DNA from: a virus
Strand: one strand, 5' to 3'
IMG/VR virus record: IMGVR_UViG_3300022916_000058
Location: 1-31,752 of that record
Length of the DNA stretch: 31,752 nt
The notes beneath the pieces are model-generated. The model was not told where the DNA came from. It saw only the letters and a program-made list of their open reading frames with translations, and searched no databases. Position 1 is the stretch's first letter, and each line of letters opens with the position of its first letter. The translations under genes and the position numbers were made by a program. Positions 147 through 30,194 of this stretch are shown here, one piece after another.

Positions 147-459
147 GCCGAAGTGGGGGACGTGTGGATCTCCCTGCAGATGGAATCGTCCGACGATGGT
201 ACACGTCTACGGTACGGACGACGTGATCCACGTCTGCGACCGCTACCCGCACACAGAGCCAATCCCATCGAAGAACACCTGCGGCGAGTGGGAGCCGCCC
301 GAAGGCCGCGTGTGTGGGACGTGTGAGTGGTGGGCCAATCCAGCCACCAACGAGAAGGCAAGATACTGTCTGACGCGTCCCATAGGGCCAACGGCTCAAC
401 TGCACGGTTGGGCCGACACATGCCCCGCATGGCGCTGGACCGGCCCATCGCCCACCTGA
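139..459 (+). CDS. Cys-rich tandem zinc-binding protein, function unknown
   Basis: This 106-aa protein has eight cysteines in two groups of four: C9, C13, C33, C48 (followed by GEW) and C59, C62, C77, C95 (followed by PAW). Each group has the same plan: a close Cys pair, a lone Cys, then a Cys before an aromatic residue. This suggests two tandem zinc-binding modules. The second group matches the single module in the protein at 1691-2050. I chose ATG 139 because GCGAGG precedes it and it overlaps the upstream stop; a GTG at 121 is also in frame. The role is unknown; protein or nucleic-acid binding is only a guess. Confidence 0.7.
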   Translation: MDRPKWGTCGSPCRWNRPTMVHVYGTDDVIHVCDRYPHTEPIPSKNTCGEWEPPEGRVCGTCEWWANPATNEKARYCLTRPIGPTAQLHGWADTCPAWRWTGPSPT

Positions 460-499
460 CACACCCGCCTGACACACCTGACACACCGCCCTTGACACA
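455..499 (+). repeat. Four short TGACACA repeats upstream of the HTH gene
   Basis: The motif CCTGACACA occurs at 455, 468 and 477, and a variant CTTGACACA at 491. Spacing is 13, 9 and 14 bases. The first copy contains the stop codon of the preceding gene. The last copy contains TTGACA (492-497), a perfect -35 hexamer, but only a weak -10 (CAGGAT, 515-520) lies 17 bases downstream. The array fills the only real gap (460-539) in the first 7 kb, directly before a helix-turn-helix gene. An operator for that regulator, or a regulated promoter, is a reasonable inference. Confidence 0.5.
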
Positions 500-539
500 T
501 GCGCCGCAACGGTGCAGGATCTCGCCCAAAGGAGATCCC

Positions 540-938
540 ATGCCGCAAGTAGGTTACGAAGTCCGCCTCTACAACAAGGGCGGGCAGTACGTCTCGGCCG
601 AGGCTGACGACGAGAAGGACGCCACCGAGAAGGCCGAGGCGAAGTTCGAAGACTACTTCGGCAAGGCTGAGATCGCGCAGAAGATCGTCAAGCGCCCCGA
701 AGACTCCACCCCGCTCGACATGAGCTTCCACGGTCGCCTCGGCCGCAGCCTGCAACGCCTGCGCGTCAACGCCGACAAGACGCAGAAGCCCGTTGCTCAG
801 GCGGTGGGCACGTCGCCATCACAGCTCAGCAAGTGGGAGAACGGCCACGACGAGATCGGCTCGCGCAACGCGGACAAGTTGCTGAAAGCGATCGGCGCCA
901 CGGTCCCGGATCTGATCGCGGAGATGTCGACGGAGTAG
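540..938 (+). CDS. XRE-type helix-turn-helix DNA-binding protein
   Basis: This 132-aa protein has two parts. Residues 1-55 form a charged beta/alpha domain (GYEVRLYNKGGQYVSAEADD and following) of unknown role. Residues about 67-125 form a Cro/C1-type helix-turn-helix: GRSLQRLRVNADKTQ, then PVAQAVGTSPSQLSKWENG, which is the classic recognition-helix signature of the XRE family. ATG 540 follows a strong AAAGGAG site. The gene is the first after the gap carrying the TGACACA repeats, so it probably regulates its own operon or a phage switch. Its targets are not known. Confidence 0.8.
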   Translation: MPQVGYEVRLYNKGGQYVSAEADDEKDATEKAEAKFEDYFGKAEIAQKIVKRPEDSTPLDMSFHGRLGRSLQRLRVNADKTQKPVAQAVGTSPSQLSKWENGHDEIGSRNADKLLKAIGATVPDLIAEMSTE

Positions 939-941
939 CCC

Positions 942-1118
942 GTGCCACCCAAGACCCGCCGATTCCACGTGATGCTCACTGACGACCTGTTCGACCACCT
1001 CAAGCGCCGAGCAGACGAGCGCCTTACGTCAATGGCCCAATTCGTGCGTGATCTCGTGCTGCGGGATCTCGTGCGCAACCCACCGAGAGAGAGCGATGAC
1101 GAAAAAGAAGCCCGGTAA
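942..1118 (+). CDS. Ribbon-helix-helix (Arc/MetJ-like) small protein
   Basis: This 58-aa protein starts at GTG 942, just after the upstream TAG, and stops at TAA 1116. A basic beta-strand region (KTRRFHVMLTDD) is followed by helix A (LFDHLKRRADER) and, after a turn with Ser-Met-Ala, helix B (QFVRDLVLRDLVRN). This is the ribbon-helix-helix layout, in which the strands of a dimer enter the DNA major groove. The acidic tail overlaps the next gene's start at 1096. It is related to the truncated protein at 3-146. It is probably a regulator; no specific operator can be assigned. Confidence 0.7.
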   Translation: MPPKTRRFHVMLTDDLFDHLKRRADERLTSMAQFVRDLVLRDLVRNPPRESDDEKEAR

Positions 1119-1365
1119 GAAGCCGACGACGAAGCCCACGCCCGCGAAGATCGCCGCTGCCATGGTGGCGAAGATCGATCGGGCACTCGCGACCGGCGAG
1201 ATCGGGATTGACGATGACGTGCAGGCGCTGGCCGTGTGCGTGACGAGGGCGGACGCCTACGCCGTTGTAGAGGCCCTCGAAGGATCGGGGTGCATGGTGC
1301 GTGTCGACGACAGCACGCCGAAGCGTGGATACCGTGTGACGGCGTGGAAGCGGGGGGACGCATGA
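1096..1365 (+). CDS. Small basic-N-terminus hypothetical protein
   Basis: This 89-aa protein begins with a Lys/Pro/Thr-rich segment (MTKKKPGKKPTTKPTPAK) that is probably disordered and could bind nucleic acid. A compact alpha/beta domain follows, with ADAYAVVEALEGSGCMVRVDD and a strand ending RVTAWKRGDA. I do not recognise a family. ATG 1096 was chosen over upstream in-frame codons because a purine-rich GAGAGAGAG lies directly upstream. The gene overlaps both neighbours (by 23 and 4 bases) and so belongs to the same operon. Confidence 0.6.
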   Translation: MTKKKPGKKPTTKPTPAKIAAAMVAKIDRALATGEIGIDDDVQALAVCVTRADAYAVVEALEGSGCMVRVDDSTPKRGYRVTAWKRGDA

Positions 1366-1694
1366 CCACGTGTGATGTAAGCCGCGGCGTCGTAGAGCTC
1401 CACAGCACGGCGGGCGGGATCACCTATCGCCTATGGATCTTCACCACCGCGATCACGGCGGTACAGGACCGCATCGAGCGCGACAACCCCGATCAGCCAT
1501 TCGAGATCCGCCCCGGCGCGATCGTGATAGCAGGCACGGGTCACGGCGTGAACGAGTCGCCCGAAGAGGTGCTAGCCGCCATCGACCGCGCGGGGTTCGT
1601 CAACAGCGAATTCGAGTCGATGGAGCCGGATACCATCGTGATCGAGATGGACGGCGCGAGGGTAGCCGAGGCCGTCGCGAAGAGGATGCCATGA
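1362..1694 (+). CDS. Hypothetical protein, 110 aa
   Basis: The start ATG at 1362 overlaps the previous TGA in an ATGA junction. The protein (MTTCDVSRGVVELHSTAGG...) looks like a mixed alpha/beta fold, with strands around YRLWIFTT and EIRPGAIVIAGTG and helices around EEVLAAIDRAG and GARVAEAVAKRM. No catalytic motif or family signature is seen. Codon use matches the surrounding genes, and the coupled junctions on both sides support that it is translated. Confidence 0.6.
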   Translation: MTTCDVSRGVVELHSTAGGITYRLWIFTTAITAVQDRIERDNPDQPFEIRPGAIVIAGTGHGVNESPEEVLAAIDRAGFVNSEFESMEPDTIVIEMDGARVAEAVAKRMP

Positions 1695-4301: not shown

Positions 4302-4591
4302 CCGACAACACCGACGACTTCGGCCTCACATCCGAGTTCGTCAAGTCGTGCCGACTCGTCAGCGACGGCACGTGGTGGGTGAAGGGCGAGATCGTGGAGT
4401 GCGTCGACTGGTACGAGGGTCACGGCTACGGCCTGTTTCGTGGCCCGCACGCATCGCTAGGTGAGAGCATCGAGTGCAAGCCGAAGGGCGATATCCACAT
4501 GGACGAAGACACCGCGAACCTCACCGAGTTTGACATCTACACGCCCGATGGCGTGCTGTGGCGGGCAGCGGTGGAGGATGACGACGAATGA
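4298..4591 (+). CDS. Acidic hypothetical protein, 97 aa
   Basis: ATG 4298 overlaps the upstream TGA and GGCGAGG lies just before it. The protein is strongly acidic, ending VEDDDE, and beta-rich in the middle (TWWVKGEIVECVDWYEGHGY). Acidic small phage proteins sometimes mimic DNA or inhibit host enzymes, but nothing in the sequence proves that here. I do not recognise a family. Confidence 0.5.
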   Translation: MTDNTDDFGLTSEFVKSCRLVSDGTWWVKGEIVECVDWYEGHGYGLFRGPHASLGESIECKPKGDIHMDEDTANLTEFDIYTPDGVLWRAAVEDDDE

Positions 4592-4902
4592 CGCTACGCA
4601 CGAAGCGATGGCAAGACGATCCGCGGAATTGGCCGCCGAGCGAATACTCCGCAGCCGTGGCGCACAGCATGGGAAAGATGTGGGAGATCGCAGGTGACCG
4701 GCCCGCGCTGGTCCCGTTGCCACCAGCGTCATCGCTCCATGGGCAGCCCGTCGCGACAGGGCCCGATCTGCCCGTTGGCGTGGTCCCGGGCTGGTCAGCG
4801 TGCGGCGCGTTGGCTGTCCCGCTGTCGGCGCTGTACGGTGACGATCCGCGGCGCGAGAGCTACAAGGCGAAGCGTAGGGCAGCGGTGGAGGGCGACGAAT
4901 GA
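4588..4902 (+). CDS. Hypothetical protein, 104 aa
   Basis: ATG 4588 is in an ATGA junction with the previous gene, and the protein ends in another ATGA junction at 4899. The middle is rich in Pro, Gly and Val, with a basic segment RRESYKAKRRAA near the end. There are no motifs that point to a function. Retention of the coupled reading frame between two overlapping genes is the main evidence that it is real. Confidence 0.5.
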   Translation: MTLRTKRWQDDPRNWPPSEYSAAVAHSMGKMWEIAGDRPALVPLPPASSLHGQPVATGPDLPVGVVPGWSACGALAVPLSALYGDDPRRESYKAKRRAAVEGDE

Positions 4903-6419
4903 CCGCCCTACCACCCCGCCCGCAGATGTCACGCGAGCAAGAGCGTGCAGCGTCCATGTCAAACACCGTCGCCGCGTTCGGCGCCCTGTGGTGCTCGCAA
5001 GGTGCGCTCAACCTCCCAGTGCTCGCGCAGTGGCCCACGGTGGCGCAGCTAGGGGACGCCTTCAAGGGACAGCCCGCGGTCATCATCGCGCCGGGGCCGT
5101 CGCTGTCGCAGAACCTGCACCTCGTGAAGCAGCTCAAAGGCCGCGCGGTGCTGATCGCCTTCTCGCGCTGCCTCGAGATCCTCAAGCCCGCTGGGATCGT
5201 GCCTGACTTCGTGGTCGTGCTCGACCCGCTGGATCTCACGTACCACTTCGACGGGTACGACGCGCGCGAGATCGAGTGCCTGTGCGTGGGTATGACGTGC
5301 AACCCGCAGTTGTACCGACTGCCCGTCAAGCGGTTCGCCAGCTTCTCAGGAAACGCGGTGATCGAGGCGTGGCTGTATGACCACCTCGACGGGCCCGACA
5401 CGTGGCTTGATACCTCGTGCTCGGTGGCTACCACGTCGACCTCGCTGGCTCTCAAACTGGGCTGCGATCCCATCATCTACGTGGGCCAGGATCTCAGCTT
5501 CCCCAAGGGCAAGTATTACGACAAGGGAAGCCGCGACGGTGGCGCCACGCTGCAGAAGATCGAGCCGCTGAGCGCCGAGGATCAGGCGGAAGAGGATCGC
5601 ATCCTCAAGACGCTGGGAGCCCTTGCGCAGTGCGGGGATCAGGCCGCTCAGATGGCAATCCAGCGTATCTACAGCGAGCGGGACGTGCGCGAGAACGGCA
5701 GCGACGTGGCTGGGTTCAGCGCAGAAGCCAAGGAAGTCGAAGCCACGGGCAAGGCTGTGCTGTCGAGGATCGGCCGCGTGGCCAAGGTGCCAGGCTACTA
5801 CGGCGGCAAGGTGCCATGCACTCCCTCGTTTTCGTGGGTGGGTGAGTGGCTGGAGAAGCGCGCGCAGTTGCAGCCGTTCGGCCGCATGATCAACGCCACC
5901 GAGGGCGGGCGGTACATTCAGGGCATGGTGCACGCGCCTCTGCAGACCGTGATCGACGGTGGCGAGGTCAAGAGGGGCTCTGAGGTCCACGCTACGCTCG
6001 ATCCGCTACCCGATACGCCCGTGGACGTGCCCGGCGTGCTCGATGGCATCTGCGAGGCTCTGGATACCGACAAGCAACGCGCCGATCTGCTCGCCATGTC
6101 CCACGATATCCGCGACTCCATGACCACGGCGGGCGCTGCCGCCTTCCACCTCGACAACGCTATCGACAGGCGCTACCCCGCGCGCACGCTCCGCGGCCTG
6201 GAATCGTGGATGGTGGACGCCATCGCGCCCGCGTCCATGTGGGCGAGCGTGTGCATGCAAGCGCACACCGCCACGCTCACACAGCAGATGAACGCGACGG
6301 GCGGCGATGACGCATGGCGCACCGCGCTCGCGGATCTGTGCCGAGCGGTGGACACGACACGGAAGATCGCGCAGGCGTGTTTCGACGTGGCGATCGGTGA
6401 GATGGAGGGCGAGGGATGA
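4899..6419 (+). CDS. MptE-like / Maf-type (DUF115) protein
   Basis: This 506-aa protein matches the family that includes archaeal MptE (6-hydroxymethylpterin diphosphokinase) and bacterial Maf glycosyltransferases. Visible signatures in order: VIIAPGPSLS (61-70), PDFVVVLDP (102-110), SVATTSTSLALKLGCDPIIY (175-194) followed by VGQDLSF, and INATEGGRYIQG (331-342), the conserved end of the domain. Maf proteins transfer nonulosonic acids such as pseudaminic acid to flagellin; MptE transfers diphosphate. I infer a transferase using a nucleotide-activated donor, perhaps acting on a virion or host surface protein. The substrate cannot be told from sequence. Coupled by ATGA to both neighbours and upstream of the terminase genes. 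Confidence 0.75.
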   Translation: MTALPPRPQMSREQERAASMSNTVAAFGALWCSQGALNLPVLAQWPTVAQLGDAFKGQPAVIIAPGPSLSQNLHLVKQLKGRAVLIAFSRCLEILKPAGIVPDFVVVLDPLDLTYHFDGYDAREIECLCVGMTCNPQLYRLPVKRFASFSGNAVIEAWLYDHLDGPDTWLDTSCSVATTSTSLALKLGCDPIIYVGQDLSFPKGKYYDKGSRDGGATLQKIEPLSAEDQAEEDRILKTLGALAQCGDQAAQMAIQRIYSERDVRENGSDVAGFSAEAKEVEATGKAVLSRIGRVAKVPGYYGGKVPCTPSFSWVGEWLEKRAQLQPFGRMINATEGGRYIQGMVHAPLQTVIDGGEVKRGSEVHATLDPLPDTPVDVPGVLDGICEALDTDKQRADLLAMSHDIRDSMTTAGAAAFHLDNAIDRRYPARTLRGLESWMVDAIAPASMWASVCMQAHTATLTQQMNATGGDDAWRTALADLCRAVDTTRKIAQACFDVAIGEMEGEG

Positions 6420-6898
6420 TCCACGCACCGCGAGGCGATCACAAGTGGAAGCCGTTTCAAGAGGCGATCCAGTGGTCTAGCAAGCCCATGTACCTGCGGC
6501 ACGCTGACGGCGACTACATCGGCGTTGCTCAGATGGTGGACGCCGAGTGGTGGGAGATCACGAGGCACGCTGACGGGGCTGCAGTGATGATCAAGCCGAT
6601 CGACGTGGCGTGGGAGTGCACGCCCGTCGACATGCTCGCCCTCTTTCGTCACGATCTCGCAGCCTACGAATCGGCCATACGCGCGCAGTTCGCAGGCGAC
6701 GGCACACCGCGCAGGGTGGACGCCATGCGGGACAGAATCCTGTCGTTCGTGTTCTTCGGTGGCGACGCCAACCGGCTCGATGGCCCGCGCGTGTGCCCTC
6801 GGTGCGGCGAGGAGCAAAACCTGCGATCGATCGACGGGGACCAGTGTTGGGATTGCGACTGGGACGAAGCGCGCGACGGGTTGTGGAGGGACGAATGA
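6416..6898 (+). CDS. Hypothetical protein with C-terminal zinc ribbon
   Basis: This 160-aa protein ends in a clear four-Cys ribbon: CPRCGEE, about 14 residues, then CWDCDWDE. The N-terminal part has repeated Trp/His residues (KPMYLRHADGDYIGVAQM, then EWWEITRHADGAA), with HADG occurring twice; this may be a small internal duplication. ATG 6416 overlaps the previous TGA. No family is recognised beyond the zinc ribbon. Confidence 0.6.
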   Translation: MIHAPRGDHKWKPFQEAIQWSSKPMYLRHADGDYIGVAQMVDAEWWEITRHADGAAVMIKPIDVAWECTPVDMLALFRHDLAAYESAIRAQFAGDGTPRRVDAMRDRILSFVFFGGDANRLDGPRVCPRCGEEQNLRSIDGDQCWDCDWDEARDGLWRDE

Positions 6899-7155
6899 TC
6901 GATCCCAACTTCCACGGCCGGATCTCGCCGTCGCCTGAGCCGCCGCTCACGCCCGCGGACATCGCAGCAGCGTGGGGGGACATCACCGCGCCCTACGTCG
7001 GCAAGCCGCTGTACGTGTTCGATCAATACTTCGGACTCGGCGCGATCGAGATGGGTAGCGCCCGCGAACAGACGTGGTGGACGTGGGTAGATCGGTGGTT
7101 CAAGACGCTCGCCCTGCGCCAAGCGTGGGCACCGGGAGGGGAGGGGATGCCGTGA
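6895..7155 (+). CDS. Small hypothetical protein upstream of terminase
   Basis: This 86-aa protein starts at ATG 6895 (ATGA junction) and ends overlapping the GTG of the next gene. It contains TPADIAAAWGDITAPYVGK and a Trp-rich helix (TWWTWVDRWFKTLALRQAW). It is likely helical at the C-terminus. Its place before the probable small terminase would allow a packaging role, but no motif supports this. Confidence 0.5.
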   Translation: MIDPNFHGRISPSPEPPLTPADIAAAWGDITAPYVGKPLYVFDQYFGLGAIEMGSAREQTWWTWVDRWFKTLALRQAWAPGGEGMP

Positions 7156-7583
7156 CCGCCGTAACCCTCACCCCGCTCATGGTCGCCGTCCTGATCGACC
7201 TGTGCAAAGGCGGCATGTCCTACGCCGAGATCGCCACCAAGCACAAGATCACCGATCCCGACTTGATCCGCAGGTGGGCGAATCTCAAGTGTTTCAAAGA
7301 GGAACACGCATCGCTTCAAAAGGAGATCCGATCCCAGCGTGCCGCGCTCATGGACCACGCAAGCATCCTCGCGGCAAAGCACCTCGTGGCCACGCTGGAC
7401 GACGACAGCGAGGACAAGACGGCGGACAGGAACACGGCAGCGCAGATCGCGCTGAGGAACACGAACGAGCAGCCAGGCGAGGTAAGCATCACCATCGAGC
7501 CCCGTGGGATCTTCGCCGCACCGCCTGATGAGTTGCCGCCGGTGCCGGTGCTGGAGTTGGAAGAGCCGAAAGAGGACGAATGA
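7152..7583 (+). CDS. terS: Probable terminase small subunit
   Basis: This 143-aa protein begins with a helix-turn-helix-like segment (residues about 13-38: LIDLCKGGMSYAEIATKHKI, then TDPDLIRRW). A long helical region follows (EEHASLQKEIRSQRAALMDH), then an acidic Pro-rich tail. This is the layout of small terminases: DNA-binding domain, oligomerisation helices, and a flexible C-terminus that contacts TerL. The position 580 bases upstream of terL agrees. The start is GTG 7152, overlapping the previous stop. Sequence identity to known TerS proteins cannot be judged here, so the call rests on fold pattern and position. Confidence 0.6.
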   Translation: MTAVTLTPLMVAVLIDLCKGGMSYAEIATKHKITDPDLIRRWANLKCFKEEHASLQKEIRSQRAALMDHASILAAKHLVATLDDDSEDKTADRNTAAQIALRNTNEQPGEVSITIEPRGIFAAPPDELPPVPVLELEEPKEDE

Positions 7584-8158
7584 CCATCATCACCGCATGC
7601 GTTCGCAACGGCGTGGGCGCTCTCGCAGCCGACACCAACGCTACAGGCTCATTCAAGGCCCAGTACGGCCCGAAGGGTATCCAGGTCCGCGACGACTTCG
7701 CAGTGGGCTTCAGCGGCTCCCTGTGGCCGATGCAGTGGTTCAACAGGCACCGCGCGGAGTTGGAGGCGCTGCCACCAGCCGAGCCCGATGGAACGTTCCG
7801 CGAGGCCCTCGAAGACCTGTGGCTGCGCTACGTGCGTGAGCAGATGGACATGGGCAGCGGCGAGGTCCACGACCGCGAGAAGATGGTCCTGGGCTGGGGT
7901 GTGCTCGTGACTCCCGGCCACATCTACTCGCTGGAGAGTAACGGCTGCGTGTGTGAGCCCGCGGCCGAGTACCACGCGAGCGGCAGCGGTGAGGGCGTGG
8001 CCATGGGGGCGATGTGGGCGTGCGTGGATCTCGACAGGTCGAAGCGCGAGACTCACCCCGGGATCATCGCGAGGATCGGCGTGAAGGCGGCCATCGACCA
8101 CGCCCCCGGGTGCGGCGGTCCGTGGCAGCGGTGGAACGTGGGGGAGAAGCACGACTAG
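7580..8158 (+). CDS. HslV/proteasome-beta-like Ntn peptidase
   Basis: This 192-aa protein starts MTIIT. After Met removal, Thr1 would be the N-terminal nucleophile. Numbered that way, R8-N9-G10 matches the same positions of HslV, A15-A16-D17-T18 matches the conserved Asp17, and K31 sits where Lys33 lies if a short loop is deleted. GFSGS corresponds to the Gly47 loop (HslV GFAGG), and ASGSGEGVAMGAM corresponds to the conserved SGSG turn before helix H3. HslV forms double hexamers that degrade proteins fed by HslU; no HslU-like ATPase is in the window. It lies between terS and terL, with an ATGA junction upstream. Peptidase activity is inferred from motifs only. Confidence 0.75.
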   Translation: MTIITACVRNGVGALAADTNATGSFKAQYGPKGIQVRDDFAVGFSGSLWPMQWFNRHRAELEALPPAEPDGTFREALEDLWLRYVREQMDMGSGEVHDREKMVLGWGVLVTPGHIYSLESNGCVCEPAAEYHASGSGEGVAMGAMWACVDLDRSKRETHPGIIARIGVKAAIDHAPGCGGPWQRWNVGEKHD

Positions 8159-8161
8159 CCC

Positions 8162-9724
8162 ATGCACATCGATCGCATGTACACCACCCGCGGGCAGCTC
8201 GTCACGCCCAACCCCGTGCAGTGGTGGATTCTCGAGGCGTTCAGATCCTCGCGCGTGTTCGACATCCTCGTCAGCGGTGGCCTAGGCGGTGGCAAGACGG
8301 CGGTAGGCGCGCAGGCACTCGTCGAGACGGCAGCGCAAAACGCCAACATCACCGACGGTGCGCCGCTAAGGTACGGCATCGTCTCGCCGAGTTTCAGCCA
8401 GCTCAACCGCGTGACGCTGGAGGCGTTCCGAGGAGTGTGGAACGCCATGAACGATCAGAAGGGTTCGTCACCGCAGGCTTTCTCCGCATGCGACAGCGTG
8501 ATCCGGTGGGACAAAAAAGAGTGCATCATCTACACGAAGCTCGGCGCGGAGTTCGTGTACGGCACAGGCGACAACGCAGCCCGCGCGCTTGAGGGAAGCG
8601 AGTTGACCGCGGCGTGGGTCGACGAACCGGCGCTGTGCAAGGAAGAGACGCAGGCGCGCATCCGCGAGCGCTTCCGCCAAAACGTGTTCGGGCCGACGGG
8701 CGCCACGATCCAGGGCATCATATCCACCGGCACGCCTCGCCCGGGATGGTCCCTCGCGTGGCTGCACAAGACGTTCGGCAACCTCGACGACTACACCCCC
8801 AACGGGCTGCGCAAGTGCCGCGTAGCGCTGCCTACGCGCTTGAATCTGCCCAACCTGCGGCCGGGGTACCTCGACGAACTCCGCAGCATGTACAGCCCGC
8901 GCATGATGGAGGCGATGCTCGAGGGCAAGTTCGTCGTGCTCACAGGCGCCGTCTATCCCGATTGGGGCGAGGGCAGCGCCGTAGACTACATCCACGATCC
9001 CAAGCGCGAAGTCATCATCGGGCTAGATCCCGGCTACCGCCGTGCGGCGTGGATCTGCACGCAGCCGACGCACGCGTACCAAGCCGGGCTCCCGCTGATC
9101 GGGACCGAGGGCTGGACGATCTTCGACGAGATCATCACAGCCGACACCGACACCGAGCGGCAGACGCTGCAGCTACTGCAAAAGCCGTGGATGAAGGGCC
9201 GTACCACCATCACGATCGCGCACGACCCCGCAGGCGTGGCGAAGCAAAGCGCCGTGGGCAAGTCGGACATGGACATCATCAAAGACACGTGCCGCAAGGC
9301 GGGCGTCAACGTCGTGTTTAGTTGCTCCCGCAAGCCCGAAGACCACGCGATCCAGGCGAGGTGCGAGCGCCTACGCGCGCTGATCAAGTCGGCTGACGGC
9401 GTGCAGAAGATGACGATCGCGAGGCCGATGCAACGCAGGCAGTACACGCCGGGCGAGGATGGGCGCAAGTCGGTGGGGATCTACGAATCGCTGCTTGAGC
9501 AGCCGTTCAAGGACGGCAAGGACATCCCAGACGACTCGACGGTGTGGAAGCCGTGGACGCACTCGGGAGACGCGCTGGGCTACCTCGCGGTGTTCGTGGC
9601 GCCGATCTTCGCGCACGACGATCAGGGGTGGAAGGACGCGGCTGAGGAAGGGTATGAGGAGCGGGCGTTGGGTGGTGAGATGGGCGACTTCGGTGGGGAT
9701 GGGTTCGGGGTGGCTGACTTCTAG
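8162..9724 (+). CDS. terL: Terminase large subunit
   Basis: This 520-aa protein is the packaging motor and headful/cos nuclease. Its ATPase domain shows Walker A SGGLGGGKT (residues 38-46), Walker B LTAAWVDE (148-155, D154/E155) and the coupling motif ISTGTP (187-192). The RNase H-like nuclease domain shows D289 (IIGLDPGY), D355 (IAHDPAG) and D470 (HSGDALGY) as the metal-binding acids. The protein ends in a Gly/Asp-rich tail. Length and motif order are normal for the family. ATG 8162 lies 3 bases after the peptidase gene. A promoter begins right after its stop. Confidence 0.95.
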   Translation: MHIDRMYTTRGQLVTPNPVQWWILEAFRSSRVFDILVSGGLGGGKTAVGAQALVETAAQNANITDGAPLRYGIVSPSFSQLNRVTLEAFRGVWNAMNDQKGSSPQAFSACDSVIRWDKKECIIYTKLGAEFVYGTGDNAARALEGSELTAAWVDEPALCKEETQARIRERFRQNVFGPTGATIQGIISTGTPRPGWSLAWLHKTFGNLDDYTPNGLRKCRVALPTRLNLPNLRPGYLDELRSMYSPRMMEAMLEGKFVVLTGAVYPDWGEGSAVDYIHDPKREVIIGLDPGYRRAAWICTQPTHAYQAGLPLIGTEGWTIFDEIITADTDTERQTLQLLQKPWMKGRTTITIAHDPAGVAKQSAVGKSDMDIIKDTCRKAGVNVVFSCSRKPEDHAIQARCERLRALIKSADGVQKMTIARPMQRRQYTPGEDGRKSVGIYESLLEQPFKDGKDIPDDSTVWKPWTHSGDALGYLAVFVAPIFAHDDQGWKDAAEEGYEERALGGEMGDFGGDGFGVADF

Positions 9725-9753
9725 TTGACGCGCCGATCCTCGTGCCCCATACT
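9725..9753 (+). promoter_or_regulatory. Sigma70-like promoter after terL
   Basis: TTGACG (9725-9730, 5 of 6 to the -35 consensus) and CATACT (9748-9753, 4 of 6 to the -10 consensus) are separated by exactly 17 bases. Transcription would start near 9760, at the first base of the inverted repeat at 9761. The TTGACG begins immediately after the terL stop codon. This is the best-looking promoter in the window and would drive the ParB-like gene. Confidence 0.6.
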
Positions 9754-9760
9754 TCCCCCC

Positions 9761-9825
9761 GTGAGTCCCGAAACAACCCCACATTCGATTTCGTCGCCCG
9801 TCGCTTCGGCGCCTTCGGGACTCAC
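9761..9825 (+). promoter_or_regulatory. Leader inverted repeat, perfect 12-bp arms
   Basis: GTGAGTCCCGAA (9761-9772) is exactly complementary to TTCGGGACTCAC (9814-9825), with 41 bases between. The left arm begins at the predicted transcription start of the promoter at 9725-9753. No T-run follows, so a simple intrinsic terminator is unlikely. It could be an RNA leader stem closing a structured loop, or a binding site for a dimeric protein such as the ParB-like product. Confidence 0.6.
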
Positions 9826-9861
9826 ACGTCGGAGCGGCGGCGGCGATTTGTGGGAGGCATC

Positions 9862-10728
9862 GTGCCATCTTCCGTAAAGTACAGAGAAGCTGCAGCGTCC
9901 ATCGAGGTGGTTACGCCCGATCAAGCGTCGGGCATGCTCAGGAGAAACACAGGGAACCGTCCGCTGAATGAGGCGCGGGCAATGGCGCTAGCGCAAGCCA
10001 TCATGCGCGGCGAGTGGGTGTTCAACGCGCAGAGCGTAGCGGTAGGTACGGATGGGCGACTTCTCGACGGACAGCACCGCCTGCGGGCGATCGAGATCAG
10101 CGGCATCGGCGTGCCGCTGCTGGTATGCAGGGGGCTCCCCCTGCTGGCGATGCGAACAATCGACATCGGCGCGAAGCGCACGAACGGCAACATGCTGCGG
10201 GTGCTGCGCGGGATGAAGAGCGCGAATCAGGTGGCAACGGCGGTCGGGCACCTGTACAGGCTCCTGATCGGGCCATCGGCGCTCACGAGGTACCAGATCC
10301 CAACGCCAACCGAAGTCGACAGCCTCATCGACGAGTATCCTGACGTCATCGCCGGGGTGGAGGTGTACAGAACCGCAGCGTTCCGCAGGCTCACGAAGAG
10401 GACAGGCGCGTTCGCAGCCCTCTACGCTCTTACGATGCCGACGCTCCCGGGCGAAACGGCGGAGTTCGCATCGCAACTCGTGAAGGGCGTTGATGTCGCG
10501 TCCCCCGTCGCGCACCTGCGGAACTTCGCGCTGGACATCAGGTTGAAAGAGAGCAGCAAGATGGGCACCTATCGGCGCGTGCCGAACAAGCAATTCATCG
10601 GGTGCATGATCAAGGCGTGGAACACGTTCGCGCAGGGGAACGAGATGAAGCGCCTCTTCATGACGAAGAGGGAGAAGTTTCCCGCCATCGTCGGCGGCCC
10701 GGGGTGGACTGCGCCCAACGGGGACTAG
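9862..10728 (+). CDS. ParB-like / DGQHR-domain protein
   Basis: This 288-aa protein carries NRPLNEARAMALAQAI, then GEWVFNAQSVAV, then LLDGQHRLRAIEISG, and later TIDIGAKRTNGNML. The DGQHRLRA block is the hallmark of ParB-like nuclease/CTPase-type domains often seen in phage genes. The rest is helical, with a basic C-terminus. I chose GTG 9862, which follows GGGAGG; a longer frame from GTG 9742 would translate through the inverted repeat and has no ribosome site. It separates terL from the portal gene and shares its stop bases with a minus-strand gene. A DNA-binding or partition-like role is inferred. Confidence 0.7.
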   Translation: MPSSVKYREAAASIEVVTPDQASGMLRRNTGNRPLNEARAMALAQAIMRGEWVFNAQSVAVGTDGRLLDGQHRLRAIEISGIGVPLLVCRGLPLLAMRTIDIGAKRTNGNMLRVLRGMKSANQVATAVGHLYRLLIGPSALTRYQIPTPTEVDSLIDEYPDVIAGVEVYRTAAFRRLTKRTGAFAALYALTMPTLPGETAEFASQLVKGVDVASPVAHLRNFALDIRLKESSKMGTYRRVPNKQFIGCMIKAWNTFAQGNEMKRLFMTKREKFPAIVGGPGWTAPNGD

Positions 10729-10931
10729 TCCATATCCGCCATCGGGGCGACTATCCCGATCGTGATCACCCCTCGCTCGCCTACCCCCGAATCCTCGTCG
10801 AAAAGATCAAGCAACGCGCGCGCGATTGCGCGGCGGCAGAAGACAGGCGTTGCCTCGTTGGCTAAGATTGCATCGACAGATCTGATGTAGGCTGCGAAGT
10901 CTGCCAGGGAAGGGAACGGATCTTCATCCAC
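10725..10931 (-). CDS. Small minus-strand protein, second gene of a two-gene operon
   Basis: This 68-aa protein starts at GTG 10931 on the minus strand, overlapping the stop of the upstream minus gene by 8 bases; GGGCGGGG lies upstream. It reads MDEDPFPSLADFAAYIRSVD, then a helix CRRAIARALLDLF, then GVITIGIVAPM. Its TAG overlaps the TAG of the ParB-like gene on the other strand (CTAG at 10725-10728). An in-frame ATG further upstream (11000) would run deep into the neighbour and is less likely. With the RHH-like protein it could form a regulator/partner pair, but no family is recognised. Confidence 0.55.
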   Translation of the reverse strand: MDEDPFPSLADFAAYIRSVDAILANEATPVFCRRAIARALLDLFDEDSGVGERGVITIGIVAPMADMD

Positions 10932-11136
10932 TACCAACCCCGCCCACAGGCGCACCGCTGCACTCCACCTCAAGCGCCCGCAAGCCCCGCTCCATCGCAA
11001 GCCGCAGCACCTTCGTTCGGCTCGACTTCGCCCACCTGTTCATCTCGTGATAGCGGGCCACTGACGACACCATCGCGCTCGCCCTTGCCACGTGTTCACG
11101 CTGGATCTTGATCGGCATCGTGTCGTCGAATTCCAT
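10924..11136 (-). CDS. Ribbon-helix-helix-like regulator on the minus strand
   Basis: This 70-aa protein starts at ATG 11136 on the minus strand, preceded by a strong GGAGGG site 6 bases away. A longer frame from 11187 has no such site and would cross the operators. A short strand (MPIKIQR), a helix (HVARASAMVSSVARYHEM) and a C-terminal helix (SRTKVLRLAMERGLRALE) suggest a ribbon-helix-helix or similar small DNA-binding fold. Palindromic sites and a promoter lie directly upstream, so autoregulation is likely. It opens a two-gene operon pointing against the phage late genes. Confidence 0.65.
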   Translation of the reverse strand: MEFDDTMPIKIQREHVARASAMVSSVARYHEMNRWAKSSRTKVLRLAMERGLRALEVECSGAPVGGVGSG

Positions 11137-11210: not shown

Positions 11211-11219
11211 TATCCCCAA
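11190..11219 (-). promoter_or_regulatory. Minus-strand promoter of the two-gene operon
   Basis: Read on the minus strand, TATGAT (11195-11190) is a 5-of-6 -10 hexamer. TTGGGG (11219-11214) lies 18 bases upstream as a weak -35 (3 of 6). Transcription would start near 11183, inside the second palindrome, about 47 bases before the ATG at 11136. The weak -35 and overlapping operators suggest a regulated promoter. It overlaps the first codon of the portal gene. Confidence 0.5.
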
Positions 11220-13732
11220 TGGCAGCCGCCACCGTCACCCGCCACGTTCACACGAGGCGAGCATCCTCACCACCCGCGCGCAAGCGGCAGCGCCCCTCCA
11301 TGCGGATCTATGAAGACGGCGACGCGTTCGCCGAGTTGGAGCGCAGGGAGTCCAACGGCCAGCCCATCGGGTGGAGCGGCACGGAACTCGCGGGCGGATA
11401 CTTCACCGGCGTCGATCCCAACGCCGAGATCGACAACGACGCATGGCTCGGCGACACGTCTGCACCCGGCTTCGGCGAGCAGATGGCCAAGGAAGACGGC
11501 GAGGTAGGCGCGTCCGTTGACGAGTGGATGGAGGCGGTCCAGAACGCCCCGTGGACGGTGCAGCCGGGAGACGCCGACGACCCGCAGCAGCACATGATGG
11601 CCGAGTTCATCCGCCGCATGCTGTTTGAGGTGAGCGAGACGAGTTGGGAGACGAATAGCCGTCACCTAGCGCGCTCCGTGCTGTGGGGCTGCTCACCGTC
11701 TGAGATCGTTACCGGGTACGTCAGCGACGACGAGACGCCGGTGTATGAGCAGGTCAAAGAGCCGGGCCGCATGGCGAAGTGGACGCCTACCGGGCAGTTC
11801 GATCGCGGTCACTACGTGCTCACGGACCTCGCCCCGCGGTCGCCAGCATCCATCGAGCGGTGGTTGCAGGACAAGGAAACGGGCCGATTCGCAGGCATCG
11901 AGCAGATCGGCCGCATGGACGACACCACGGGGCTAGGTACAGGGAACATCGAGATCCCCGCCGATCGCCTCGTGCTGGTGACGTACGGCGGTGACTCCGG
12001 CAACTGGCAAGGCGTGAGCCGCTACCGCCCCGCATACATCCTGTGGAAGGCCCGCAAGGTGCTTCTGCGGATGCACGTGATCGCCGCTGAGAGATTCGGC
12101 GTAGGCGTCCCGAACGCCAAGGTAGTAGCCAAGCCCGGCGAGGTGGATGACAAGACGCTGCGCGACAACTGGGCCAGCGTCAAGCGCATGGTGGCCCGCT
12201 ATCGCGGCGGCTCGCAGGCATGGATCGCCACGCCCTACGGGATCGACGTCGACATCATGGACACGGCGCTTCCCGCCGCAGACGCGATCCTCAAGCTGTA
12301 TCAGGCGCTGAGCACCGAGATCCACATCATCGGGCAGACGCAGCATCTGGTGCAGGGTACGCAGTCCGGCAGCGGTGGCCTCGGCACGCAGGGCCTTCGC
12401 GATGGCCAGTCCAGCGACTTCCGCAACACGATCAATCCGCTACTCGACAGCATCGCCCGCGAGACAAACCGCCGACTCGTCAAGCCGCTGATCGATCTCA
12501 ACTGGGAAGGCGTACGCACGTACCCGTTTCTCCAGGTGGGTGACGCCGCACAGCAGAGCGTCAAGGAACAGCTCGAGGCTTACGAGATCGGCGTGCGCTC
12601 GCGTGCGCTGACGCCGCAGCCCGAAGACGAAGACTTTTTCCGGCAAGAGTCTGGGTTGCCCGTTCGTGTCGAAGTTGAGGCCGAAGAGGAGCCGGACGAA
12701 GATCCCGACGACGACACCACCGACGAGCCCGAACAGCTCGCCGAGTGCGCATGCGGCTGCGGTGGCGTGGACATGTTCGCCGACATGCCCTTTGAGGCCG
12801 AGCAGGGTCGAGGCGCCGAGCGCGTGCGGCAACTCGCCGAGTCGAAATTCGACGACCGATCGAGTCGCGTGGCCCGTGAAGACGCCATCACCAGGATCTC
12901 GGTGGACACGCACAACACGATCCGCCGTCGCGTGCTCGAGCCGTATCTAGAGAAGATCGCGCCCGCGCTCGCGAGCGGTGACGCCGCTGCCATCGCAAGG
13001 ACGCCGCTACCAGGCAAGCCCGCCCTCGTTCGCACGCTGCGCGACGGGTACCAGGACGTGCGGCAGTTGGGAAAGGCGGAAGTCAAGCGCGAGACGAAGC
13101 GGATGAGCAAAGATCCCGACTTCGCCGCCGACATCGCCGAGGCAATGGCCGAGTGGGCGCAGGACAACCCGTCGCTCTTCGCCGACAACCCCAGCGGGCA
13201 AGCCAACTCGGTCGACGACATCGTGCGCAAGGCGGGCGAGATCGTAAAGAAGATCGGCCTGATCGCCACGACCACCGCGTCCATGCTGTTCGGCCAAGTC
13301 GACGCCACGATCAACAGCTATCTGCAGCAGGTGCCCGTCAACGAGTGGGTGCCGTCCGCGATCATGGAGCGGGTGCAGTCCGTCATCACGCCGCGCACCA
13401 TCGCAAGCGACGCAGTGATCCAGGACTCCAACAGCGTCTACAGCGTCGGCAGAGCCGAACAGGGGCGCATCGAGGGTGCTGGGACTGTCGTCTATACCGT
13501 GAACCCTGAGATCGGCATCAGCGGCCCTCACGTCGTGTGCGTCGAGTGCGAGGCGACGGCAGCGAGCGCGGCGAATCCGGCCGAGGTGGGAACGCCTCAA
13601 GAGGAACAGCTCATGGCGCCGAATCCGCTGTGTTTGTCCACGCTTAGCGGCGTGAACAACTGCTGGTGCACGCTGATCTATCTCTCCACAACGAGCACGG
13701 CGGACGCGGCCGATGCGGCGGGGCTGGCATGA
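11219..13732 (+). CDS. Portal protein (Mu gp29-like) fused to F-like minor head domain
   Basis: This 837-aa protein is longer than usual portals (about 450-550 aa). Residues about 30-500 look like a gp29/DUF935-type portal, with WTVQPGDADDP, LWGCSPSEIVTGY and a stem/wing region ERFGVGVPNAKV. An acidic linker with CACGCGG (about 512-518) follows. The C-terminal 300 residues end like Mu F-type minor head proteins: helices ending YSVGRAEQGR, then C774-VE-C777, then PNPLC (C805) and NNCWC (C815, C817), matching the CxxC...PLHPxCRC region. The portal forms the dodecameric DNA gate; the F part would be carried into the head. ATG 11219 lacks a clear ribosome site. Confidence 0.8.
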   Translation: MAAATVTRHVHTRRASSPPARKRQRPSMRIYEDGDAFAELERRESNGQPIGWSGTELAGGYFTGVDPNAEIDNDAWLGDTSAPGFGEQMAKEDGEVGASVDEWMEAVQNAPWTVQPGDADDPQQHMMAEFIRRMLFEVSETSWETNSRHLARSVLWGCSPSEIVTGYVSDDETPVYEQVKEPGRMAKWTPTGQFDRGHYVLTDLAPRSPASIERWLQDKETGRFAGIEQIGRMDDTTGLGTGNIEIPADRLVLVTYGGDSGNWQGVSRYRPAYILWKARKVLLRMHVIAAERFGVGVPNAKVVAKPGEVDDKTLRDNWASVKRMVARYRGGSQAWIATPYGIDVDIMDTALPAADAILKLYQALSTEIHIIGQTQHLVQGTQSGSGGLGTQGLRDGQSSDFRNTINPLLDSIARETNRRLVKPLIDLNWEGVRTYPFLQVGDAAQQSVKEQLEAYEIGVRSRALTPQPEDEDFFRQESGLPVRVEVEAEEEPDEDPDDDTTDEPEQLAECACGCGGVDMFADMPFEAEQGRGAERVRQLAESKFDDRSSRVAREDAITRISVDTHNTIRRRVLEPYLEKIAPALASGDAAAIARTPLPGKPALVRTLRDGYQDVRQLGKAEVKRETKRMSKDPDFAADIAEAMAEWAQDNPSLFADNPSGQANSVDDIVRKAGEIVKKIGLIATTTASMLFGQVDATINSYLQQVPVNEWVPSAIMERVQSVITPRTIASDAVIQDSNSVYSVGRAEQGRIEGAGTVVYTVNPEIGISGPHVVCVECEATAASAANPAEVGTPQEEQLMAPNPLCLSTLSGVNNCWCTLIYLSTTSTADAADAAGLA

Positions 13733-14956: not shown

Positions 14957-15343
14957 ATGGCTCTGCGCGCAAGCCCGCGAGGGATGAGCGACACCACCAT
15001 CGTTGACTGGATCTCCTCGCTCAACAACCTGTCGGGGCAGGAGTACCGGGTCGCGATGTACTCCGGTACCGGACTCATCATCGCCTCCACGACCGATGCG
15101 CCCGCGGGCATCATCAAGAACGGCGGCACCGACAGCGCCGTTCAGGTCACGCTGCACGTCGGCGGCTACTCCGAGGGCGAGGCCGGTGGCGCGTTCTCCT
15201 TCGGCGAGATGCTGATCCCTGACTCGCAGGGCCGCCTCGTCGCTTCCATTTCCGCCGCCGAGCCGAAGGCCGCCATGGCTCTCGCCGACGCAAGCGCCGC
15301 CGGGCAGGTCATCCCGCTCAAGGTGCTCGGAGGGGCAATCTGA
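14957..15343 (+). CDS. Head decoration / capsid stabilising protein
   Basis: This 128-aa protein sits between the scaffold and the major capsid gene, the usual place for a decoration protein such as lambda gpD or a DUF2190-type protein. It reads as beta-rich, with APAGIIKNGG, a Gly-rich segment EGEAGGAFSFGE, then DSQGRLVASISAAEPKAAMA and a final VIPLKVLGGAI. The last part, in which an Ala-rich helix is followed by I.LKVL, resembles DUF2190-type proteins. ATG 14957 follows AAGGGGG. It overlaps the capsid gene by one base. It probably binds the capsid surface after expansion. Confidence 0.6.
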   Translation: MALRASPRGMSDTTIVDWISSLNNLSGQEYRVAMYSGTGLIIASTTDAPAGIIKNGGTDSAVQVTLHVGGYSEGEAGGAFSFGEMLIPDSQGRLVASISAAEPKAAMALADASAAGQVIPLKVLGGAI

Positions 15344-16305
15344 TGCCTGCTGGAACCTCGACTGTCTCCCCCCTGCTGACTCGACTGGTTCGCCAGCTCG
15401 GCGTCAACAACTCGTTCATCTTCGACAAGGTGCCGGGCGTGCCCTTCACCTCGCGAGATGGCTCCTACGTGCAGCTCGACGAGGGCACGTTCACCGGCGA
15501 CAACAACGCCCCCGACTCCGAGATGGGCCGACGCCAGATCGGTGGCAAGTACCGCAGCTTCGACTTCGGAACCACCGAGACCACGTTCCAGATGGAGGAG
15601 TTCTACGCGTACAAGAAGTACGATTGGGGCGAGAAGCAGAACGCGGACGGGCCGATGCTCGACACCGCCGGCCGTGCCGCCGTCCACTCGCGCCACAACA
15701 TCGCGCGGGAGCTGGGCTGCCACGACCTCTTCTTCACCACGGGCAACTGGACCAACGCGGCCACCGCCGCGGGCGACAGGTTCAACAACGTGAACTCGAA
15801 CCCGCCCAACGTCGTACGCGCGCAGTGGGAGGCCACCGAGGTCTCGGCTGCCAACGGCGGCGGACGTCGCGTGATGATCATCCCGCCCGTCGCGATGAAC
15901 CACCTCAAGGCGCACCCGGTCTACACCGACGTCAACGCGCGAGGCGAGATCACCAGCTTCGGTACCCACGAGCAGATCGCCAAGTCCTTCGACGTCATGC
16001 CGGAAGACCTGTGGGTGCCCCGTGCCGTGCGCTCCACGCAGACCAAGACCCGCGCGATGACCGCCACCGAGGCGCGCATCTGGAGCGAGGCGCAGGTGTG
16101 GATGGGCTACCTGCCGACGACCATCTCCGAGGGCGAGCTGACGGCAGCGGCGTACCTCTACATGGGCAGCGACATGCCGGAAGTCCGGCGTGGCGAGGTC
16201 GACAACGGCGACGAGCGGTACGACTGGATGCGCGAAGTGTCCGTGGGTGCCTACATCGCCGTCGAGACCGGCGGTGCGCGTCTGCTCACCACCGTCTACG
16301 CGTAG
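15343..16305 (+). CDS. Major capsid protein
   Basis: This 320-aa protein follows GGAGGGG closely and lies directly after the decoration gene. The N-terminus (PLLTRLVRQLGVNNSFIFDK, then VPGVPFTSRDGSYVQLDEG) and a middle with GRRQIGGKYRSFDFG and EEFYAYKKYDWGEK resemble HK97-fold coat proteins of the type with a fixed 'F-I-x-D-x-V' opening. The C-terminus contains YLPTTISEGELTAAAYLYMG and ends RLLTTVYA. Length is normal for such coats. No large delta domain is visible; scaffold is supplied by the upstream gene. Confidence 0.8.
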   Translation: MPAGTSTVSPLLTRLVRQLGVNNSFIFDKVPGVPFTSRDGSYVQLDEGTFTGDNNAPDSEMGRRQIGGKYRSFDFGTTETTFQMEEFYAYKKYDWGEKQNADGPMLDTAGRAAVHSRHNIARELGCHDLFFTTGNWTNAATAAGDRFNNVNSNPPNVVRAQWEATEVSAANGGGRRVMIIPPVAMNHLKAHPVYTDVNARGEITSFGTHEQIAKSFDVMPEDLWVPRAVRSTQTKTRAMTATEARIWSEAQVWMGYLPTTISEGELTAAAYLYMGSDMPEVRRGEVDNGDERYDWMREVSVGAYIAVETGGARLLTTVYA

Positions 16306-16319
16306 GAAGGAGGCCCCCA

Positions 16320-17924
16320 ATGGGTCGTAACAGAGTACTTCCTCACAGCCCGATTCTCCTGGGTGACGCACAGGTGCAGAGCGCCTCGACGTTCACGGTG
16401 GAGCGGGGGCGGTGGTACATCGGGTCGGCTGCTGTCACGGCCTCGGCCGCACAGCTCAACGGCGTCGAGTCGGAGCGCGTGGCCCACGCAAGCGCCAACA
16501 TCTCGGTCGGCCGCCTCGTGTACATCTCCGGCGTCACCAGCGACGTCCCGGCCGTCACCCTCGCGGGTGCGTCTGCTCCGGCCCATGCGGCGCAGTACAT
16601 GGTCACCTCGGCGATCACGTCGGGGAGCATCGGCCGGATCGACAACGTCGGCCGGATCTCCGGGCTCTCCACCGCGGATCTCGGTGCGGCTGACGGCAAC
16701 GTCTACCTCGGCAGTGCAGCGACGGGCCTCATGGCGTCGAGCACGTCGGGGCCGCTGCTGATCACGCAGCGTGTCGCGCAAGTCGTCACCCGCGACTCGG
16801 GTACAGGCGGCGTACTGGAGATCATGATCGGCCCGGCTCAGCGCCTCGGTCGTGACGCGATCCAGCTGTCGGCGATCCAGTCCAATTCGATCGCCGCCGG
16901 GCATGTCGTTCAGCGTCACGTCGGCGACTCCGCCATCTCCGCGGCTCACGTGCAGATGTCGGCCCTGTCCGGCCTGCAGATCAAGGCGTCGGGCGTCGTG
17001 TCTTCGCGACTCGCCGTTGACGCGGTGGGCCAGCGCCACATCGGCAACAGCCAGATCAGCGGGGCACACCTGCAGGTCTCGGCGGTGGCTGCAGCGGCGA
17101 TCCAGTCCAACGCGGTCACGCAGCCGAAGATCGGCGACAGCGCCATCAGCGCCGCACACGTGCAGATGTCGAGCCTCAGCGGTCTCCAGATCGCTGCGTC
17201 CGGTGTCGTCTCGTCTCGCATCGGGATCGACGCCATCGGGCAGAGGCACATCAGCGACTCGGCGATCAGCGCCGCACATGTCCAGATGTCCAGCCTTTCC
17301 GGGCTGCAGATCGTGGCATCCGGCGTCGTCTCCTCGCGGATCGGCCTCGGCGCCATCGTCGAGCGGCACATCGCGTCCAACGTGATCTCCGCAAATAAGA
17401 TGGTCATCACCGCCGACGAGACGATCGTCGGAAACGCGACAGGATCGGGGCTCTCCCGTGACTGCCTGCCCAAGGTGCTCGCCGAGTCGTTCACCGCGGC
17501 CGACTTCTCCGCAGCGGCGAACGCCGATACGGTGGGTTTCGCTGTGTCGATCCCCGATCAGGCGGTCGTCCAGGGCGCGTGGTTCGATCTGACTACCCTG
17601 TGGGGCAACGGCGCCACGGGCTCCAGTCTGTCGAACGTGCACGTTGACTTCGGCCTGTCCGGCGCGGTGACCATCGATACCGATGGCTTCTGCAACGGCT
17701 ACCCGATCTTCAGCGGTGTCGACGCAGTCGGTACGAAGAACCCGATGAGCTACCCGGTGCCGCAGGTGCTGTTCAGCGGTGGCCCGGTCTACGTCACCAG
17801 CAACGCTCAGTTGCCGATCATCACGATCAGCGCGACCGGCGTGAACATGTCGAACGTCAGCAACGGCGGTCTTCGTGCGTACGTGATGTACATCGAACAG
17901 CCGGTGGGCTCCGCCATCACCTGA
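16320..17924 (+). CDS. Repeat-containing virion protein, probable head fibre
   Basis: This 534-aa protein starts at ATG 16320 after GGAAGGAGG. Residues 1-195 are beta-rich (RGRWYIGSAAVTASAAQLNG, later GNVYLGSAATGLMASST), similar in style to fibre shaft attachments. Residues about 198-355 hold a 40-residue repeat of the type QRHISDSAISAAHVQM with SGLQI and ASGVVSSRIG. The last 170 residues form a likely beta-sandwich knob (VSIPDQAVVQGAWFDLTTLW and following). The location right after the capsid gene, not the tail tip, suggests a capsid-attached fibre. Host or mucus binding is possible but not shown. Confidence 0.65.
   Translation: MGRNRVLPHSPILLGDAQVQSASTFTVERGRWYIGSAAVTASAAQLNGVESERVAHASANISVGRLVYISGVTSDVPAVTLAGASAPAHAAQYMVTSAITSGSIGRIDNVGRISGLSTADLGAADGNVYLGSAATGLMASSTSGPLLITQRVAQVVTRDSGTGGVLEIMIGPAQRLGRDAIQLSAIQSNSIAAGHVVQRHVGDSAISAAHVQMSALSGLQIKASGVVSSRLAVDAVGQRHIGNSQISGAHLQVSAVAAAAIQSNAVTQPKIGDSAISAAHVQMSSLSGLQIAASGVVSSRIGIDAIGQRHISDSAISAAHVQMSSLSGLQIVASGVVSSRIGLGAIVERHIASNVISANKMVITADETIVGNATGSGLSRDCLPKVLAESFTAADFSAAANADTVGFAVSIPDQAVVQGAWFDLTTLWGNGATGSSLSNVHVDFGLSGAVTIDTDGFCNGYPIFSGVDAVGTKNPMSYPVPQVLFSGGPVYVTSNAQLPIITISATGVNMSNVSNGGLRAYVMYIEQPVGSAIT
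16911..17390 (+). repeat. 120-bp (40-aa) fibre shaft repeats
   Basis: Units begin at 16911, 17031, 17121, 17241 and 17361. Spacing is 120, 90, 120 and 120 bases, so one unit has lost 10 residues; the last is partial. Each unit opens with Q/E-R-H-I (PKI in the third) and carries SAIS.AHVQM, then SGLQI and ASGVVSSRI. Two full units (third and fourth) are nearly identical. Such regular repeats usually form a trimeric beta-helical or coiled shaft. Confidence 0.8.
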
Positions 17925-29360: not shown

Positions 29361-30194
29361 ATGGCTAACGGTCCTTGGGGTTTCAAGCGTACGGGCGGAC
29401 GGTTCGATCTGCAGATGGGCCCGCGCATCACCGAAGCGTCAGCGGGCGATAGCGCCACGTGGGCGCAGTTGCTGAGCACAGCATCGTCGGTCGCCTTCGC
29501 CACGTCAGCAGCGCACGCTGGTAGCGCGACGTTCGCGGATTCGGCGGCATACGCTGCTAGCGCCGGATACGCGGCAAGCGCTGGGCACGCTGGATCGGCA
29601 ACTTTCGCGGATTCGGCGGCGTCAGCGGGCTACGCGGTGTCGGCCTCTTACGCTGAGTCGGCTGCCTATGCTGCTTCTGCCGCCTATGCCGCGAGCGCTG
29701 GATACGCTGCGAGTGCTGCCTACGCTGCTAGCGCCGGATACGCGGCAAGCGCAGGCCATGCCAACAGCGCCACCGCTGCGACGTCGGCGGCAAAGGCGAA
29801 CACCGCCAGCGCCATCGACGACGGGGTGGCGAGTGCGACGGGCGCGGAGATCGTGTCGGCTGTCGACTTGATCAACAGCCACGTGCACGCGCGGTTGCGG
29901 ATGCGGTCGCTTGGCCCGCTCGCGGTGAATGTCAAGGCTCCCACGTCGGCGCAGTGGCTGATCTTCAACCCAGCGAGCAATCTGCAGGTGAGTTTCCCTG
30001 CTGCGAGTTCGGTGCCGGGTACCGAGTGGGACATCACAACGATCGGCGTCTCCGAACTGTCGTGCATCGCGGGTAGCGGCGACTTCATCGGGGTTGCTGG
30101 TGCGGGCGGGTTCGTGTCGTCGGTGGTGCTGTCGTCGCCGCTGGAATCGGTCACGATCCGCGCGTTCGGCTCCAATGCCCTGATCGTGATGTAG
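29361..30194 (+). CDS. Tail fibre with Ala/Ser hexapeptide repeats
   Basis: This 277-aa protein has a short N-terminal anchor (PWGFKRTGGRFDLQMGPRIT), then residues about 40-155 made of a six-residue repeat of the form Y/H-A-x-S-A-x (YAASAG, YAASAA, HAGSAT, FADSAA). Similar (S/T)A(S)YA repeats occur in phage fibres, where they are thought to make thin trimeric shafts. A C-terminal beta domain follows (LAVNVKAPTSAQWLIFNPAS to the end). It is probably a side or tip fibre. Neighbouring virion genes on both sides support this. GAGGAG precedes ATG 29361. Confidence 0.65.
   Translation: MANGPWGFKRTGGRFDLQMGPRITEASAGDSATWAQLLSTASSVAFATSAAHAGSATFADSAAYAASAGYAASAGHAGSATFADSAASAGYAVSASYAESAAYAASAAYAASAGYAASAAYAASAGYAASAGHANSATAATSAAKANTASAIDDGVASATGAEIVSAVDLINSHVHARLRMRSLGPLAVNVKAPTSAQWLIFNPASNLQVSFPAASSVPGTEWDITTIGVSELSCIAGSGDFIGVAGAGGFVSSVVLSSPLESVTIRAFGSNALIVM
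29550..29752 (+). repeat. 32-bp exact direct repeat inside the fibre gene
   Basis: The same 32 bases, beginning TACGCTGCTAGCGCCGGATA, occur at 29550-29581 and 29721-29752. The 171-base offset is a multiple of three (57 codons), so recombination between the copies would delete 57 residues in frame. Shorter imperfect copies of the hexapeptide codons fill the space between, along with a second copy of TTCGCGGATTCGGCGG. Confidence 0.85.

Follow-up and report, generated by a model that had tools for sequence, protein, structure and literature searches.

A predicted Maf-type PF01973 glycosyltransferase encoded beside the packaging genes of an uncultured phage lineage

Characterised Maf glycosyltransferases O-attach ulosonic acids to Ser/Thr residues of flagellin, and two of them accept CMP-Neu5Ac and CMP-Kdo instead of the native donor (PMC11339370). 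According to the same paper, the PF01973 domain of Maf is structurally similar to Cst-II (GT42), which shares the use of a CMP-sugar donor but acts on glycans; the catalytic base of Cst-II is His188 (PMC4202792). MptE, the archaeal 6-hydroxymethyldihydropterin pyrophosphokinase (8sd5), is a protein of about 240 aa with the PF01973 core fold and its GPS and GxD motifs, and 'MptE-like' proteins of the same fold are found in uncultured Caudovirales phages and marine viruses (A0A6J5PG89, A0A0F7L3H2). Mycobacteriophages are an established case of virions being glycosylated by phage enzymes: those of Che8 (gp110), Corndog (gp38) and Myrna, as cited in PMC12363180, act on capsid or tail-tube proteins and offer a precedent for such a role.

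The window, meaning the whole stretch of DNA that was analysed, covers a complete IMG/VR virus record from an uncultured tailed phage, 31,752 bases long and linear by its classification. Its gene at 4899-6419 on the plus strand is open from ATG to TGA and encodes 506 aa. The assignment of this protein to PF01973, proposed in an initial annotation, was confirmed by an HMM search with 114.8 bits (E=4.8e-33) against the curated cut-off of 34.6 bits, profile positions 6-170 of 171 (165 of 171 positions) being aligned to residues 38-203. No other Pfam family was hit, and no PHROGs family matches the protein. A membrane segment is absent, with a maximal 19-residue hydropathy of 1.54. The protein is organised as follows.

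Residues 12-37: N-terminal helix
Residues 38-203: PF01973 core
Residues about 204-290: longer insert, specific to the lineage
Residues 297-337: VPGYYGG...INATEGG block
Residues about 377-503: C-terminal helical domain

All four family blocks named in the initial annotation are present, namely IAPGPSLS at residues 63-70, VLDP at 107-110, GCDPIIYVGQDLSF at 188-201 and INATEGG at 331-337. In an alignment of 48 members, G66-P67-S68-L69, G196 and D198, which make up the GPS and GxD motifs of the Rossmann-like core, are invariant and N72 is nearly so, while position 109 is Asp in 35 and Glu in 9 of the 44 distant relatives. INATEGG is also invariant, partly by construction, because nearly all distant relatives were fetched with that motif. 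The GQDL motif is followed by a His in 38 of the 44 relatives, and the aligned residue is Tyr207 throughout the lineage of the window; therefore the active site of this lineage is not simply that of the other members. The changed residue would sit near the presumed active site. A Tyr occupies a comparable place in the sialyltransferase Cst-II, which offers a lead for Tyr207.

An AlphaFold2 model of the protein, built from the alignment of 48 sequences (the window and the fetched loci), has a pLDDT of 87.9 and a pTM of 0.88. The top PDB match found by Foldseek is 5mu5, the Maf glycosyltransferase of Magnetospirillum (E=9.5e-11, 512 columns), and this match spans nearly the whole length, with a loose superposition (rmsd 8.0, TM 0.49 of the query). 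The shared features are the PF01973 core, a VPG..G...V.(T/S) block and the C-terminal helical domain. Archaeal MptE/HPPK ranks after 5mu5 and is aligned over about 180-200 columns of the core only (8sd5, E=7e-5), leaving the INATEGG block and the helical domain of the much longer window protein unmatched. Human ST8SiaIII sialyltransferase is a weak fold match to the model, and Cst-II lies outside the top 50. A0A6J5PG89 and A0A0F7L3H2, which are shorter or differently built, show 10-19% identity in the fold alignment. In profile searches Maf scored 79 bits and MptE 55 bits; the MptE alignment ends at the GxD motif, whereas that of Maf continues into the VPG block.

Maf/PseD is thus the best match by both sequence and fold. 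Since the 5mu5 match is nearly full-length, that of MptE is confined to the core and the Maf profile scores higher, the window protein is Maf-type and not MptE-type. The initial label of an MptE/Maf-type protein therefore stands in its Maf half, including the Maf-type fold and motifs, as the match covers the C-terminal helical domain; it falls in its MptE half, as that match stops before VPGYYG...INATEGG. Different from Maf, the protein has no N-terminal Maf domain (PF20157), only 37 residues preceding its PF01973 core, and it scores 61.6 bits with the NCBIfam PseD model, far under the cut-off of 670. For these two reasons it is not filed as a flagellin Maf. It also has Tyr in place of the common His, and its gene lies in a phage packaging context in which no flagellar genes were seen. 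The genes of this part of the window are listed below.

4588..4902, plus strand: small upstream gene whose stop overlaps the start of the PF01973 gene; weak coding score
4899..6419, plus strand: predicted Maf-type PF01973 glycosyltransferase gene (PF01973 match, AlphaFold2 model, Foldseek match to 5mu5, region identities)
6416..6898, plus strand: coupled small gene (160 aa) whose start overlaps the stop of the PF01973 gene; sub-threshold zinc-ribbon match only
7152..7583, plus strand: probable terminase small subunit (phrog_2538, E=3.3e-4)
7580-8158: HslV-like peptidase (phrog_1040, E=5.5e-15), between the TerS-like gene and TerL
8162..9724, plus strand: terminase large subunit, TerL (phrog_2, E=1.4e-26; PF03237)
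11219..13732, plus strand: Mu-type portal (PF06074, E=2e-33; phrog_113)
13729-14955: Mu I-like protease
14957-15343: scaffold-like gene, between the protease and the probable major head gene
15343..16305, plus strand: probable major head protein and candidate acceptor, from its position after the protease and the scaffold-like gene; no family match
16374..17924, plus strand: repetitive fibre-like virion protein and candidate acceptor (phrog_32822, phrog_892); start from the coding model

The gene is coupled to both neighbours by ATGA overlaps (4899-4902 and 6416-6419), in agreement with the chain of coupled genes noted earlier, and its place just before packaging, likewise noted, is borne out by the TerS-like gene, TerL, portal and protease, which all lie downstream. 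The TerL of the best-matching cultured phages is only about 24% identical to that of the window.

Several other features of this region were seen. The sequence GACGAATGA stands at four stop/start junctions (4583-4591, 4894-4902, 6890-6898 and 7575-7583), against 0.36 expected. The 4588-4902 gene is swapped for a different segment in the contig L003 (window positions 4593-4890), while the contig L006 keeps the gene with a different sequence before it, a gene-by-gene mosaicism. Two contigs that are elsewhere 99.3-99.8% identical to the window, L003/L124 and L006, lack the HslV-like gene (window segment 7568-8150). The swap points are located at or near the GACGAATGA junctions, which could possibly serve as recombination boundaries as well as coupling sites. 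A small antisense ORF (10924-11136, minus strand) precedes the portal, and G001, G005 and G006 each have a matching ORF at this position.

Three divergent lineages of the phage group to which the window belongs have the PF01973 gene shortly before TerL: that of the window itself, L001/L002 (55% identity) and L017/L091 (52%). Identities to the window are 51-55% for PF01973, 33-56% for TerL and 44-52% for the portal. Most of the remaining shared genes lie at 25-56%, though one near the end of the window shares 68% identity with its G005 match. The PF01973 gene is hence about as conserved as TerL and the portal, or more so. Within the protein, identity is 59-77% in the core and in the VPGYYG...INATEGG block and 28-29% in the C-terminal helices. 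Compared with the 99%-identical L003, the window gene has a dN of 0.0026, a dS of 0.033 and a dN/dS of about 0.08, with 2, 1 and 12 differences at codon positions 1, 2 and 3, respectively, a pattern of purifying selection. Because of its conserved place before TerL, its TerL- and portal-like identity and its low dN/dS, the gene is a core, selected gene of these phages and not a passenger or stray cargo.

A scan for VPGYYGG gave no further member of the window lineage. In a maximum-likelihood tree this lineage forms a separate clade (support 100/100, branch length 1.31) that joins neither the long Maf-like nor the compact phage types, its exact position being unsure because long branches meet there, as the tool itself warned.

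The gene is no peculiarity of a single phage: many uncultured phages carry PF01973 genes. Scanning IMG/VR for INATEGG yielded 111 stretches, from which 50 records with a PF01973-like ORF were kept; all 50 exceed the PF01973 cut-off, and TerL was detected in 24 of them. On the strand of TerL, PF01973 is upstream and close in L010, L072 and L100 and slightly further away in L013, and in at least eight records it lies about 5 kb downstream, beyond the major head gene. In L107, for example, the order is TerL, a P22-type portal, a 304-aa gene, the major head protein, a 161-aa gene and PF01973. Among the 16 records of at least 25 kb, window lineage included, 10 have PF01973 on the TerL strand and no more than 7 kb from TerL, against 2.7 expected, though these are not independent events because several records are related. 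Some contigs encode long Maf-like proteins distant from TerL or on the opposite strand, and these may be host flanks.

The Maf-like protein of L010 carries PF20157. Beside the Maf-like PF01973 genes of L010 and L072, near TerL, a gene with a lactate-racemase N-terminal domain (PF09861) is present (9114-9965, minus strand, and 342-1394, plus strand, respectively). Some records, L042/L083 (G017), L054/L011 (G025) and L073 (G033), have three PF01973 genes each.

Among 50,697 cultured phage records, tblastn with five PF01973 proteins gave no match, while the TerL and portal controls did match; one compact member used as query gave no match among plasmids. UniProt and BFVD already list PF01973 proteins of uncultured phages, some annotated as 'MptE-like', so phages were already known to carry the domain. 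A literature search on DUF115/MptE-like proteins and phages, with most subscription papers outside its reach, found no functional study. What is new is that the protein is assigned to the Maf type, that its gene is part of the phage core, that PF01973 recurs in head modules, and that the lineage is a distinct clade with a changed residue.

The initial annotation suggested looking for sialic- or pseudaminic-acid genes. NeuB and a CMP-sugar synthetase are absent from the phage records G000, G001, G002, G005 and G006, which hold no linked nonulosonic-acid synthesis genes; since these records are possibly fragments, this absence weighs little, and any donor would have to be host-made. An identical PF01973 gene is found on a Candidatus Poribacteria MAG contig (L006), which gives only a hint of the host because the compared stretch matches phage genes of the window. 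This MAG has no NeuB and one CMP-sugar synthetase match, which looks like KdsB by sequence; CMP-Kdo would therefore be available if the MAG is the host, and is a plausible donor.

As for the acceptor, the head-gene neighbourhood points indirectly to a virion protein. Most structural proteins of the window contain 13-21% Ser+Thr, compared with 5-14% for the products of the genes before the terminase, the fibre standing at 18.5% (frame 16302-17924) and the protein of 29361-30194 at 20.9%; this would lend weak support to a virion acceptor. Ser/Thr-rich fibres were put forward earlier as candidate acceptors; among the structural proteins as a whole such richness is only moderate, a point against the proposal. 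The proposal that a virion protein is glycosylated gains support from the conserved packaging neighbour in the lineage itself and from the head-module recurrence in unrelated phages, its donor and acceptor being as yet candidates.

We propose, with a probability of about 0.5, that the protein is a soluble Maf-type enzyme, encoded by a core gene, that puts a host-made CMP-activated 2-keto-3-deoxy sugar onto Ser/Thr of the virion. The host would supply the activated sugar, CMP-Kdo being the most general candidate and CMP-nonulosonic acids an option where the host makes them, and the enzyme would transfer it to a head, head decoration or fibre protein in the cytoplasm during assembly. To our knowledge, no relation exists between the mycobacteriophage virion glycosyltransferases and PF01973. 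Against a virion role speak the donor genes missing from the phage records, the His-to-Tyr change, the absent Maf N-terminal domain and the low PseD score.

Some of these points would suit other explanations. The known Mafs modify host flagellin (PMC11339370), and the sub-threshold PseD match would agree with a Maf-type enzyme acting on flagellin, pilin or another host surface molecule, whereby adsorption, phage exclusion or motility would be altered. However, this is a core gene within the packaging chain and not a variable accessory one, and PF01973 recurs in head modules. The protein also has no membrane segment, in contrast to the known serotype-converting enzymes. No positive evidence was found for the alteration of the host surface considered in the initial annotation, and we regard such a target as unlikely. 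The transferase activity may also have been lost or changed, the old fold now being an assembly factor or virion component, for instance through the C-terminal helical domain, given the His-to-Tyr change in the active-site region, the long-branch clade and the constant position before the packaging genes. The core and post-core blocks, however, are the best conserved parts and the C-terminal helices the least, as expected of a retained active site, which leaves this explanation quite unlikely.

An auxiliary metabolic gene for an MptE-like pyrophosphokinase of pterin or a related compound would fit the Pfam name and the core fold common to 8sd5, but is very improbable given that Maf outscores MptE in every comparison made, that the MptE alignment omits the post-core parts and that the gene is placed in a packaging chain. 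Equally improbable is the glycosylation of phage DNA bases as a hypermodification: the gene adjoins the terminase, which acts on DNA, and DNA-modifying phage glycosyltransferases are known (cited in PMC12619734), but the nearest fold acts on proteins and no base-hydroxymethylation gene is present among the larger genes examined in the incomplete records G001 and G006.

Returning to the glycosylation of virions, PF01973 may have been recruited repeatedly into packaging and head modules of uncultured tailed phages, so that unrelated virions bear host Kdo or nonulosonic acids, in the window lineage by way of an active site with Tyr for His; we offer this wider interpretation tentatively. The Pfam name 'MptE-like' is misleading for phage annotation, and, if our proposal is true, these so far unexplained phage genes would gain a testable function. 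The particles of several uncultured phage groups would then bear acidic bacterial sugars, which could influence adsorption, diffusion, decay or recognition, and the family would provide compact enzymes for putting Kdo or sialic acid on proteins.
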